From contig NZ_CP102280.1 in assembly GCF_025150085.1 (NCBI RefSeq), positions 2,057,001 to 2,121,000 of the forward strand: a stretch of DNA of 64,000 bases, given 5' to 3'. This document shows, piece by piece, positions 9,556 through 12,988 of the stretch. The stretch's first letter is position 1; each line of letters opens with the position of its first letter. The notes under the pieces were generated by a model. The model saw only the letters and a program-made list of their open reading frames with translations, was not told the origin of the DNA and ran no database searches. The DNA comes from Dorea longicatena. GTDB lineage: Bacteria; Bacillota; Clostridia; Lachnospirales; Lachnospiraceae. Position numbers and translations under genes: made by a program.

Positions 9556-10911
9556 ATGAATGTTGTAGACACAGTAAAAAACGCCGCCTTTGCTTCCGCT
9601 ATTCAGGCAGCACTTAACTACATGGATAAGGATCCTGAAACTAATATTCCAAAGGTTATGAGTATCGTTGACAAGGCTGCACCAGAAGGCTGGTATGAAA
9701 GTCAGCGTAATGCGATCCGTCAGGGTATCGCCGAAAAAGGTAATTGGTATCAGCTTGCACAGAAAGTATGGGAGCTGGATCCAGGTGTACGAAAAACTTT
9801 CTTTACAAACTTTATTGTTAACGCTTCTTTGAAGGGTTCTGCTCTTCAGAAGGAAACCGAGGAAAAAGAAGACTGTAATGTTCCTTGGGCGATTTTATTA
9901 GATCCGACTTCAGCCTGTAACCTGCACTGTACCGGATGCTGGGCTGCAGAATACGGACATAAACTGAATCTTTCTCTCGAAACGATCGATGACATCGTAA
10001 CACAGGGAAAGAAACTTGGTACATACATGTATATCTATACCGGTGGGGAACCAATGGTACGTAAAAAAGATATCATCACAATCTGCGAACGTCATCCTGA
10101 CTGTGAATTCTTATCTTTCACAAATGGTACACTGATCGATGAAGAATTCTGTCAGGAAATGTTAAGAGTTAAGAACTTCGTTCCTGCAATCAGTCTGGAA
10201 GGATTTGAAACTGCCAATGACGGACGCCGTGGTCCTGGTGTGTTTGATAAAGTAAAACATGCTATGCAGTTATTAAAAGAACACAACCTTCCATTTGGTA
10301 TCTCAACCTGTTATACAAGTATGAACTACAAAGATATCACAAGTGAAGAATTCTACGATATGATCATCGAAGCCGGTGCTTTATTCATCTGGTTCTTCCA
10401 CTATATGCCAGTTGGAAATGACGCCGCTCCGGAACTTATGCCAAATCCAGAGCAGAGAAAAGCTGTATACGAACGTATCCGTGCTTTCAGAAGCTCCAAA
10501 CCAATCTTCAGTCTGGACTTCCAGAATGATGCGGAATACATCGGCGGATGTATCGCGGGCGGACGTTACTACCTGCACATCAATGCAGCCGGAGATGTGG
10601 ATCCTTGTGTATTCATCCATTATTCGAATGCCAATATCCATGAAGTCAGTCTTCTGGATGCATTAAAGAGTCCAATCTTCCAGGCATACCGAAAAGGACA
10701 GCCATTCAATGACAACATGCTGCGCCCATGTCCAATGCTTGAGAATCCGGAATGCTTACCAAAGATGGTAAAAGAGACCGGTGCTCACTCTACCGATCCA
10801 CAGTCACCGGAAGATGTACAGCATCTTTGCGATAAATGTAAGCCTTACGCTGAGGCCTGGACGAAGATGGCTGATAAGCTTTGGGTGGAGAGACAGACAG
10901 CGAAGAAGTAA
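9556..10911 (+). CDS. Radical SAM protein with C-terminal Cys-rich (SPASM-like) region
   Basis: A 451-residue radical SAM enzyme. The CX3CX2C cluster motif is at C121, C125, C128 (SACNLHCTGCWA), followed by the GGEP motif (YTGGEPMV). A long N-terminal helical region (~110 residues) precedes the barrel. The C-terminus has further cysteines (GGCIAGG, VDPCVFIHY, RPCPMLENPECLPKMV, LCDKCKPY), suggesting an auxiliary Fe-S cluster as in SPASM/Twitch proteins. No peptide substrate or partner gene is adjacent, so the reaction is unknown. GAGGAGG precedes the ATG. Its stop codon abuts the giant inverted-repeat element. Confidence 0.85.
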   Translation: MNVVDTVKNAAFASAIQAALNYMDKDPETNIPKVMSIVDKAAPEGWYESQRNAIRQGIAEKGNWYQLAQKVWELDPGVRKTFFTNFIVNASLKGSALQKETEEKEDCNVPWAILLDPTSACNLHCTGCWAAEYGHKLNLSLETIDDIVTQGKKLGTYMYIYTGGEPMVRKKDIITICERHPDCEFLSFTNGTLIDEEFCQEMLRVKNFVPAISLEGFETANDGRRGPGVFDKVKHAMQLLKEHNLPFGISTCYTSMNYKDITSEEFYDMIIEAGALFIWFFHYMPVGNDAAPELMPNPEQRKAVYERIRAFRSSKPIFSLDFQNDAEYIGGCIAGGRYYLHINAAGDVDPCVFIHYSNANIHEVSLLDALKSPIFQAYRKGQPFNDNMLRPCPMLENPECLPKMVKETGAHSTDPQSPEDVQHLCDKCKPYAEAWTKMADKLWVERQTAKK

Positions 10912-10946
10912 TTTTCTATTTAATTAATTATCGTCTCCTCTCAGTC

Positions 10947-11160
10947 CATGAGAAAAACTTGGTGCTCTATTTGCTACTAAGATTCCGTGATGTAAGAAAA
11001 TCTAAGGATGTCCAAATCTCCTAAAAGCAAAGGCATTCCACTCATAACTCGCTTCGCTCAAACAATTCGTTCCATGCCTTTAACGGAGATTTGAACATCC
11101 TAAGTTTTTCTAAACATCACTCCATATACGCGACAAACAGAGCACCAAGTCTTTCTCATG
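10947..11160. repeat. Giant hairpin A
   Basis: The outer arms (10947-10973 and 11134-11160) match at 25 of 27 positions. After a symmetric 13-nt interior loop the middle arms 10987-11021 and 11085-11120 pair with few mismatches (GTGATGT ... CAAATCTCC). AAAGGCAT/ATGCCTTT closes a 37-nt loop containing CATAACTCGC. Confidence 0.88.
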
Positions 11161-11171
11161 TCGTGATTGGC

Positions 11172-11306
11172 CAATGATAATGAATTCAATAGATGGATTG
11201 TAACCGTTGTGTAGCCGGAAAGTTGTGGTGGAAGCCTTGATTTTCCGGATTTTTTGTACACTTTCGGTATCACGCCGGTTACGCTTCCACTATTGAATCA
11301 TTACTG
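11172..11306. repeat. Giant hairpin B
   Basis: Arms of about 60 nt pair imperfectly: TTCAATAG with CTATTGAA, GTAACCG with CGGTTAC, CCGGAAAGT with ACTTTCGG, and GGAA with TTCC near the loop. It is less regular than hairpins A and C. Confidence 0.78.
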
Positions 11307-11321
11307 TATGCGATAACGTAA

Positions 11322-11529
11322 GGAAGAAAAGGGAAAGAGTCCCGCTGCGTGCATATGAGATCATGGTTAGTATTTCTTAAGCATCAAAATTGGCCGTTAG
11401 CAGTCAAAAAATCATTGTCTGAGCTTGCGAGTTATGTTTTTTTGACTGCTGCTTTTAGGACAATTTTGATGCTTTAGAAATACTCCATGATTGAATCAGC
11501 ACGCAGCGGGACTCTTTCCCTTTTCTTCC
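11322..11529. repeat. Giant hairpin C
   Basis: The 31-bp outer arms 11322-11352 and 11499-11529 are perfectly complementary (GGAAGAAAAGGG ... CCCTTTTCTTCC). Further in, AGTATTTCT, AAGCATCAAAATTG and CAGTCAAAAAA pair with their complements. The loop (11412-11436) carries GCGAGTTATG, the complement of the hairpin A loop. Confidence 0.9.
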
Positions 11530-11554
11530 GGCCGGGTATCAACCGCTTAATGCA

Positions 11555-12988
11555 TTAAATAGAAAATCTCCCCCGCATCTCAAACCCATGATCCATCGGT
11601 CCGCTTCCTTTTCCCAGATCTAACATGGCTTCCAACGCCCCGCTGATATACTCTTTCGCGCGGTGAATAGATTCTTCCAGAGAATATCCTTTTGCCAGAT
11701 TGGATGCGATTGCGCTGGATAAGGTACAGCCGGTTCCGTGAGTGTTCGGGTTGTTGATTCTTTTTCCGTGGAACCATGTTGTTTCTCCATCCTGGTATAG
11801 GAGATCATTCGCATCATTCAGGCTGTGTCCGCCTTTGCATAAGACTGCACAGTGATACATTTCATGAATCTTCTTTGCTGCTTCCACCATATCATCTTCT
11901 GATCTAATCTCCATTTCTGCAAGAACTTCTGCCTCTGGGATATTCGGTGTGATCACAGTTGCCATTGGCAGCAGCTGTGTTTTTAATGTATCAATCGCGG
12001 TTTCACTGATCAGTCTGGATCCGCTTGTTGCTACCATCACTGGATCAACTACGATATTCTCCAGATGGTACTCTTTTAGTTTCTTTGATATCATTTTTAT
12101 TAACTCTTCTGATGACACCATACCGATTTTCACTGCATCCGGACGGATGTCTGTGATAACTGCGTCCAACTGTTGTTCTAGAAATTCCGGAGATACTTCC
12201 ATGATTCCGGTTACTCCGGTTGTATTCTGGGCTGTCAGTGCGGTGATTGCACTCATTGCGTAGACTCCGTTTGCCTGCATCGTCTTGATGTCTGCCTGAA
12301 TTCCTGCACCTCCACTTGAATCACTTCCGGCGATTGTAATTGCTGTCTTTTTTTTCATAAGTTCTGCCCACTCTCTACAATACCAGTCTACTTCTCTCTG
12401 AACCTCTTCCTGGTCATCCTTACTTGCTTCATCATAGATTCCTACAACCTGGAACCCTGCCTGCTTTGCAGTACGGATTGCATGAATGACATCTTCGAAT
12501 ACAACCGTCTCCTCCGGACGGGTTCCGAGATATTCTGCTGCCCGCAGATAAATATCCGGCTTCGTCTTTCCCGCACCGACCTCTTCACAGGTAAAGATCC
12601 GGTCAAAATATTTTGCAATTCCCAGACGCTCAAATGCCATCTCTATCTCTTTTTTATTATTGGATGATGCAACCGTCATTGGGATATTATGCTTATCAAG
12701 CTTTTCCAGAAGTTCCTTCACTCCACTCTTTAATAGTGCGGTTTTCTTATAATAATTGCTGATGATGTCCAGAACTCCCTGCACAATTTCTTCCGGCTCC
12801 TGGGACAGATGATAATGTTCTTTTACATATGCTGCACCTTCCTGGATGCTCATTGTAAATAACACCGTCCCAAGATCCGGCTCTGCCTCTATACCGATAC
12901 TGTTCAGATAACGGACTCCTACGTCTTCCCAGATCTCCATGGAATCCAGAAGGGTTCCGTCTACATCAAATATTGCTCCTTTTATCAT
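11555..12988 (-). CDS. thiD: HAD phosphatase-ThiD fusion (HMP kinase / HMP-P kinase)
   Basis: Residues 1-~212 form a HAD-family hydrolase of the beta-phosphoglucomutase-like group (FDVDGTLLDSM at the start, VVFEDVIHAI near 160). Residues ~213-477 form ThiD, which phosphorylates hydroxymethylpyrimidine twice (AITIAGSDSSGGAGIQADIK, then VDPVMVATSG and NTHGTGCTLSSAIASNL). The junction KKKTAITIAG looks like a normal ThiD start fused in frame. The HAD half may be a phosphatase in thiamin metabolism, but this is inferred from the fusion. Its ATG overlaps the thiE stop by 4 bp in a thiM-thiE-thiD operon under a TPP riboswitch. Confidence 0.9.
   Translation of the reverse strand: MIKGAIFDVDGTLLDSMEIWEDVGVRYLNSIGIEAEPDLGTVLFTMSIQEGAAYVKEHYHLSQEPEEIVQGVLDIISNYYKKTALLKSGVKELLEKLDKHNIPMTVASSNNKKEIEMAFERLGIAKYFDRIFTCEEVGAGKTKPDIYLRAAEYLGTRPEETVVFEDVIHAIRTAKQAGFQVVGIYDEASKDDQEEVQREVDWYCREWAELMKKKTAITIAGSDSSGGAGIQADIKTMQANGVYAMSAITALTAQNTTGVTGIMEVSPEFLEQQLDAVITDIRPDAVKIGMVSSEELIKMISKKLKEYHLENIVVDPVMVATSGSRLISETAIDTLKTQLLPMATVITPNIPEAEVLAEMEIRSEDDMVEAAKKIHEMYHCAVLCKGGHSLNDANDLLYQDGETTWFHGKRINNPNTHGTGCTLSSAIASNLAKGYSLEESIHRAKEYISGALEAMLDLGKGSGPMDHGFEMRGRFSI

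Follow-up and report, generated by a model that had tools for sequence, protein, structure and literature searches.

A dispersed palindromic element with concertedly changing arms and a conserved mismatched module, probably mobile, between two converging genes of Dorea longicatena

Miniature inverted-repeat transposable elements (MITEs) of bacteria include the Correia/NEMIS, ERIC, RUP and bcr types. Long palindromes are generally considered to be unstable in bacteria. Repetitive extragenic palindromes (REPs) and their BIME and REPIN arrangements are described in two papers as lying often downstream of genes or between convergent genes, with inverted pairs that form larger hairpins; the REPs themselves measure 20-40 bp and most carry GTAG or CGTC tags (PMC3733652, PMC3116915). 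Template switching, according to two further papers, keeps stems paired through simultaneous multi-base complementary changes in RNA genes and in yeast coding sequence (PMC8794818, PMC8604942). Here, we analyse a stretch of 64,000 nucleotides of the Dorea longicatena contig NZ_CP102280.1 (positions 2,057,001 to 2,121,000 of the forward strand; "the window", whose own numbering is used below), and within it a 657-bp spacer at 10911-11567 that consists of an outer inverted repeat and three long hairpins.

We consider it probable that this spacer is a composite copy of a non-coding, palindromic and non-autonomous mobile family, whose hairpin arms are copied from one another and whose persisting mismatches are under selection. 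The mobile nature is well supported and the arm-copying mechanism moderately so, while recognition of the conserved internal module by some factor is what we infer. Like MITEs, the element is short, non-coding, dispersed and bounded by terminal inverted repeats; among its relatives in other genomes, target duplications occur, and a transposase gene at a single locus has the same kind of ends. Unlike MITEs, it consists throughout of long, nearly perfect hairpins with arms rewritten in concert, and one internal module is common to elements with different ends. The element appears to be a new variant of the non-autonomous palindromic elements, one that carries a conserved mismatched module. As in the template-switched stems of the papers cited above, both arms change together at several bases, but here this happens in a mobile repeat family and conserved mismatches escape correction.

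The spacer separates a radical SAM/SPASM gene (9556-10911) from a converging HAD-ThiD fusion gene on the minus strand (11555-12988), and the outer inverted repeat touches the stop codons of both (10909-10911 and 11555-11557). This architecture, reported in an earlier sequence-only reading, was confirmed by the inverted-repeat search and by folding. The minimum free energy of 10900-11580 folded as RNA was -286.9 kcal/mol, compared to -156.4 (sd 4.7) for shuffled sequences (z -27.6), and 10911-11567 folded as DNA reached -165.1 versus -66.3 (sd 4.6; z -21.5), with 20 shuffles in each case. Two details of that reading had to be changed: hairpin 2, given as 135 bp, spans about 115 nt in the inverted-repeat search, and the hairpins, described as differing in sequence, include two that carry the same module in opposite orientation, hairpin 1 in the plus-strand and hairpin 3 in the minus-strand sense. 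The features of the window copy are as follows.

10911-10930 and 11548-11567: outer inverted repeat, 20 nt, 90% complementary.
10911-10934, plus strand: terminal inverted repeat at the left end of the composite copy, ATTTTCTATTTAATTAATTATCGT, from the inverted-repeat search and end-motif enrichment.
10947-11160, plus strand: hairpin 1 (unit 1), arms 10947-10993 and 11114-11160 with nested arms inside; covariation in eight own-genome copies.
11002-11107, plus strand: sense copy of the module, M, reading CTAAG, stem A, CTAAAAGC, stem B, AACTCG and, further on, CTCAAACA, stem B', TAACG, stem A' and CTAAG.
11169-11193, minus strand: diverged copy of the left end in inverted orientation, GGCCAATGATAATGAATTCAATAGA, with which unit 1 closes, assigned by eye; ATCTATTGAATTCATTA here is one of the end-motif matches with up to two mismatches.
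11184-11298, plus strand: hairpin 2, arms 11184-11220 and 11262-11298, inner inverted ends GTAACC (from 11200) and GGTTAC (to 11283).
11214-11255, plus strand: terminator-like stem in hairpin 2, GCCGGAAA and TTTTCCGG, then six T, recognised by eye.
11289-11312, plus strand: end-like sequence ACTATTGAATCATTACTGTATGCG, opening unit 2, assigned by eye; the stand-alone unit 2 copy L018 starts with TTTCTATTTAATTATTATGGC.
11322-11529, plus strand: hairpin 3 (unit 2), arms 11322-11366 and 11485-11529 with nested arms; covariation in eight own-genome copies.
11369-11477, minus strand: antisense copy of module M.
11544-11567, minus strand: right terminal inverted repeat, which encodes the last residues and the stop codon (11555-11557) of the ThiD-side frame.

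The general order of the module is CTAAG, stem A, CTAAAARC, stem B, AACTCG, a small variable stem, CTCARACA, stem B', AACG, stem A' and CTTAAG. Since the end sequence was found again by eye, inverted, after hairpin 1 and ahead of hairpin 3, and since hairpin 3 also exists as a stand-alone unit (L018), we interpret the window copy as a pair of oppositely oriented hairpin units with the smaller hairpin 2 between them. The window copy holds no reading frame of 75 aa or more; some of the other copies contain frames of 75-181 aa or the starts of such frames. By eye, the ends of the window copy hold stop codons in two of three frames and the AGTTCATC variant in one.

When the element was compared by BLAST with its own single-contig genome (2,919,963 bp), 48 places matched, the window copy counted, and the retrieval of 28 further loci brought the number of related copies or fragments to at least 29. 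L009 is 97% identical to the window copy across nearly its whole length, and L011, L012, L013 and L017 match it at approximately 73-76%. Other copies are partial, lacking hairpin 3 (L010, L015, L016), the upper part of hairpin 3 (L014), hairpin 1 or, in L025, nearly everything between the ends, and some are fragments only. Near-identical pairs (window copy and L009, 97.4%; L011 and L012, 99.2%; L015 and L016, 98.9%) have flanks that are dissimilar over 300 nt. L015 and L016 share, at distant sites, an identical 228-nt deletion, which suggests that the deleted copy itself moved, although repeated independent deletion could also have produced it. Direct repeats of 5-7 nt are present at the hairpin bases of the deletions in L010, L014, L015 and L016, and tip deletions in L035 and L023 leave clean hairpins; together, these suggest that the DNA folds during replication. 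The end motif, with up to two mismatches, occurs 24 times forward and 25 times reverse in this genome, versus 3 and 4 times for the backwards pattern, counts that include places inside copies. The element is non-coding, dispersed and multicopy, with terminal inverted repeats.

In a relative of the same genus (genome G002), the gene order is thiD, a CytX-like frame, a short GC-rich hairpin and the radical SAM gene, with no element. The frame in between (L271:2288-3468), a CytX-like permease, is missing at the corresponding place in the genome of the window, so that the two loci differ by a gene as well as by the element. A search in 60 relatives gave no match to the element at E <= 0.001, a soft negative with nine candidates at most scored per genome. 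At the protein level, the element end supplies part of the coding sequence for the C-terminus (..MRGRFSI, within 11555-11600) of the ThiD fusion, and the ThiD frame of the relative terminates in ..ITSKYTELCDTKEEH.

The motif pattern of the module was present in 11 of 397 genomes of the family (24 matches in the D. longicatena genome, 61 in G386, seven in G072, four in G140 and one in each of seven others), while the control with the backwards pattern gave zero. In a scan of 398 genomes of the phylum, five of them in the same family, only the own genome matched, leaving 0 of the 393 others. At least 120 stretches matched in a scan of named genomes; among the 80 listed were Candidatus Mediterraneibacter species, Hungatella effluvii, Blautia, Clostridium sp. 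AT4 and chh4-2, and metagenome-assembled genomes (MAGs) of Lachnospiraceae, as well as 12 Bacteroidota records with a looser form. Two-module composites were also found in a Mediterraneibacter MAG contig (L190), a Lachnoclostridium MAG contig (L187) and Lachnospiraceae bacterium B67_67_LP_H (L162, L165). Stem B was paired at nine or more of its ten positions in 88 of 106 Lachnospiraceae-type modules (3% expected by chance), but in only 2 of the 12 modules from titled Bacteroidota records and in one of ten further modules that had been set aside. The apical motif is retained in the Bacteroidota forms, which also fold as hairpins, built on a different base; perhaps they belong to the same family by descent, and some of these matches may be due to chance. 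Five of them (L119, L145, L161, L204, L223) have a second conserved stretch ahead, approximately CTTGAT..AAAAG..AAAAAATCAAGGCT, which forms a separate repeat class. A single viral contig of the collection carried the motif, inside a long reading frame (L353:9396-9439), possibly by chance, and the plasmid and phage records showed no similarity to the element. A search by apical strings, end strings and keywords, covering titles and the starts of abstracts in part of the literature, returned no published description of the family, from which absence from print does not follow.

Elements of Hungatella effluvii and its genus mate G072 consist of one hairpin of approximately 290 bp that has the module at its tip and ends reading roughly GTWACNGTTC. 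Eight elements with GTWANNGTTC ends, six with the module and two without it, are flanked by 8-bp repeats with one mismatch at most, while four shifted controls gave 0. For Lachnospiraceae-type elements, the duplication test covered the 98 modules that had some 260 nt of sequence on either side. Excluded from it and from the module set described below were 22 loci, of which 12 had Bacteroidota titles, one was a Selenomonadales MAG and nine were set apart by their sequence form. Repeats of at least 8 nt were present at the computed ends of 11 of the 98, compared to 0.38 expected, two of them (L196, L207) at doubtful ends. At one locus, in G171, the GTTACTGTTCA end, with CAATGTCATTTAGTTAA, slightly diverged, adjoins a DDE_Tnp_1 frame related to IS4 transposases. 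The B67_67_LP_H elements (L162, L155, L186) share this longer end.

Some further observations concern ends and palindromes. Two short sequences without the module, L224:295-438 (144 bp) and L280:8661-8811 (151 bp), have GTTACTGTTC/GTAACAGTTC ends and 8-bp flanking repeats. Four contig ends of the Hungatella genome G386 (L303, L312, L318, L321) break about 100 nt inside sequences that start with GTTACTGTTCAGAGG and have three different interiors. In L079, a second perfect long-armed palindrome (AAGGCATTTTAGTAAAGCGTCAAGGCATTTT and its complement) lies slightly more than 100 nt past the right end of the element.

Two other candidate mobilisers were rejected. IS66 had no match in the own genome, none of 16 IS66 loci showed a GTWACNGTTC end, and ends could be located for one IS66 element, where they read GTAAGCGCC. 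As for Y1/HUH transposases, 3 of the 11 genomes with the module lacked a Y1_Tnp match, and 9 of 13 genomes without the module had one. A Pfam scan of 20 frames beside 16 loci (10 frames of the Bacteroidota form and 10 of single-copy Lachnospiraceae) revealed neither a transposase nor a recurring mobile-element family nor an evident common function, three of the frames having no Pfam match.

We regard mobility as well supported because the copies are dispersed, near-identical copies stand at unrelated sites, a relative lacks the element, terminal repeats are present and relatives carry 8-bp duplications. The sequence-only reading had offered a mobile element as one of three options, to be recognised by presence/absence polymorphism with target duplications; one relative is without the element, and duplications were seen in relatives and not around the own-genome copies.

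The second line of evidence is the way in which the arms change. For each hairpin, we aligned eight own-genome copies that were complete for it. In hairpin 3, 35 of 80 pairs have changed on both sides, and of 633 cells 100 are double-sided changes, 6 one-sided and 5 unpaired; in hairpin 1, the same holds for 45 of 71 pairs, with 117 double-sided, 8 one-sided and 33 unpaired among 568 cells. Shuffled and slid controls were far lower for paired cells, double-sided changes and the covariation score. Compensated pairs, some of them transversions, are already present between copies only 2-6% apart, with double and single changes in hairpin 3 numbering 2 and 1 (window copy and L009), 4 and 4 (L011 and L024) and 2 and 1 (L013 and L017). 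In addition, 113 distinct modules, each with the AACG anchor and 40 nt on either side, were thinned to 45. All four Watson-Crick pairs occur at most positions of stems A and B in this set, and 76-100% of the pairs are standard versus 35-75% in shuffles, with two mismatch zones excluded. Among Hungatella-type elements, the 19 that hold both inner anchors have outer stems with Watson-Crick pairs at 49-55 of 56 positions, even though their left arms diverge by 0.31 on average, from 0 up (L067 and L189 have identical arms of 56 nt; pairing is poorest in L059 and L071).

The residual mismatches do not show the signature of an RNA helix. G-T and A-C number 10 and 11 in the outer stems and 50 and 83 in the core, certain A.C positions of which seem to be conserved. 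In six tRNAs from the fetched loci, they number 17 and 0, a small yardstick obtained with a program that itself favours pairing. Without an excess of G-U over A-C, the pattern is consistent with DNA-level copying between the arms, as in the template-switch model of PMC8794818, rather than with selection on an RNA helix. Certain mismatches persist nevertheless. In the 45 modules, A.A mismatches are kept at stem positions 17 (67%) and 27 (53%), 10 nt apart, and an asymmetric internal loop is conserved, partly by construction as the loop belongs to the search pattern. Since arm copying would erase both the A.A mismatches and the loop, selection probably acts on them.

Several observations weigh against this interpretation. 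Further pair types were not above shuffles (166 and 85 of 500 for hairpins 3 and 1), and some close pairs show mostly single changes in hairpin 1 (L013 and L017, one double and five single; L030 and L031, none and two) or, in hairpin 3, none double and one single (L011 and L012; L013 and L018). C-T mismatches are also frequent in the core (76), and the remaining deletions in L023 and L025 show repeats of only 0-3 nt. Template switching should in any case erase conserved mismatches, unless selection restores them. Concerning mobility, 78 of the 98 relatives' elements have no repeat of at least 6 nt at their computed ends, in part because arm extension defines the ends poorly, and no target duplication was found in the own genome, with repeats of at least 6 nt in 1 of 10 copies (0.2 expected). 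The IS4 link consists of one locus with a short frame (328 aa) that scores 95.1 against an NCBIfam cut-off of 115, and G171 was the only match among 299 genomes with two candidates scored per genome. In the own genome, no transposase with window-type TTTCTATTTAAT ends was found among IS66 and Y1, the types sought, IS4-type enzymes not having been searched. Finally, of the 43 modules of relatives in tandem context, 29 lie on the same strand as the genes and 14 on the opposite one, a bias that would fit a role as RNA.

Our preferred reading of a mobile family with arm copying would work as follows. The module-bearing elements of relatives would be moved in trans by an IS4-type DDE transposase and the own-genome version by another transposase. 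The element would fold as a DNA hairpin at the replication fork, where one arm may occasionally be copied from the other by template switching. The mismatches that persist (the A.A pairs, spaced by 10 nt and set in a UAA/UAA context, together with the asymmetric internal loop and the apical loop) would be kept by selection, possibly through a putative factor that recognises the folded single strand carrying them, and copies at gene ends would be tolerated or serve as transcript ends.

A more far-reaching proposal can be advanced only tentatively. The module could be a mobile single-strand structure in its own right, a hairpin whose A.A mismatches are spaced by about one helical turn and whose apical loop is fixed, and it would be read as folded single-stranded DNA by a dedicated factor of the host or the element. 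It would have been acquired by transposable elements with unrelated ends in Lachnospiraceae, perhaps also in Bacteroidota, and the outer arms would act as a natural recorder of template switching.

Much less probable than our preferred reading, though half supported, is a structured RNA or target of an RNA-binding protein, selected at the RNA level and spread by transposition, a role that the sequence-only reading had also envisaged, with covarying pairs as its mark. The very strong covariation of hairpins 1 and 3 in the own-genome copies, the conserved internal and apical loops and the strand bias in tandem contexts agree with it. However, G-T is no commoner than A-C in either the outer stems or the core, unlike in the tRNAs, promoter matches were at chance level (two found versus a mean of 1.2 in shuffles), the neighbouring frames scanned share no evident function and many copies lack one or more hairpins. 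Moreover, Rfam 15 gave nothing above the gathering threshold on the element, the four matches below it being to microRNA precursors, and no match at the elements of eight loci of the Bacteroidota form.

It is unlikely that the spacer was selected primarily as a transcript-end device, that is, as an extreme form of terminator acting in both directions, or as a hairpin that prevents read-through between convergent genes. According to a simple frame caller, 18 of the 29 own-genome copies lie between convergent genes, 9 are in tandem, 2 unassigned and none divergent, and many flanking frames in this genome terminate inside element ends. In relatives, with the 22 excluded loci counted apart, 28 copies lie between convergent genes, 43 in tandem context, 11 between divergent genes and 6 inside frames, compared to 97 convergent, 447 tandem and 92 divergent for all neighbouring frames there, a convergent share that favours such a device, as does the terminator-like stem with its six T in hairpin 2. 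Against it, the relative without the element has just a short hairpin at the same gene end, a strict terminator scan of 10850-11650 (loop 3-8) listed none, divergent and intragenic copies exist in relatives, and the target duplications and rewritten arms are left unexplained. The transcript-end function put forward earlier survives as a possible by-product: copies at gene ends are likely tolerated or used as transcript ends, which does not account for the structure or the remaining features.

Even less credible is a repeat of the REP/BIME/REPIN type, moved via single-stranded DNA by a REP-associated tyrosine transposase. Our element is likewise an extragenic palindrome with inverted pairs in convergent-gene settings, resembling REPs as those papers describe them, its hairpins hold conserved mismatches, and the own genome has one Y1_Tnp gene. 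But hairpins of 115-340 nt are far from the 20-40 bp given for REPs in PMC3733652, a separation made by length as the tags were not scanned. The 8-bp, DDE-type target duplications of relatives are unexpected for tyrosine-transposase chemistry, and the distribution of Y1_Tnp among genomes with and without the module runs against it. An assembly artefact, as repeats often break assemblies, has a negligible chance, given a single-contig genome, 29 copies or fragments with flanks of their own and the same module in independent named records.

Contrary to the instability expected of long palindromes, tens of them persist and multiply in one genome. The family offers many natural replicates of paired-arm change without an excess of G-U, with which DNA template switching can be tested against RNA selection, and it therefore bears on the reading of covariation as proof of RNA function. 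At the same time, the conserved mismatches point to a putative factor that would read the folded single strand.

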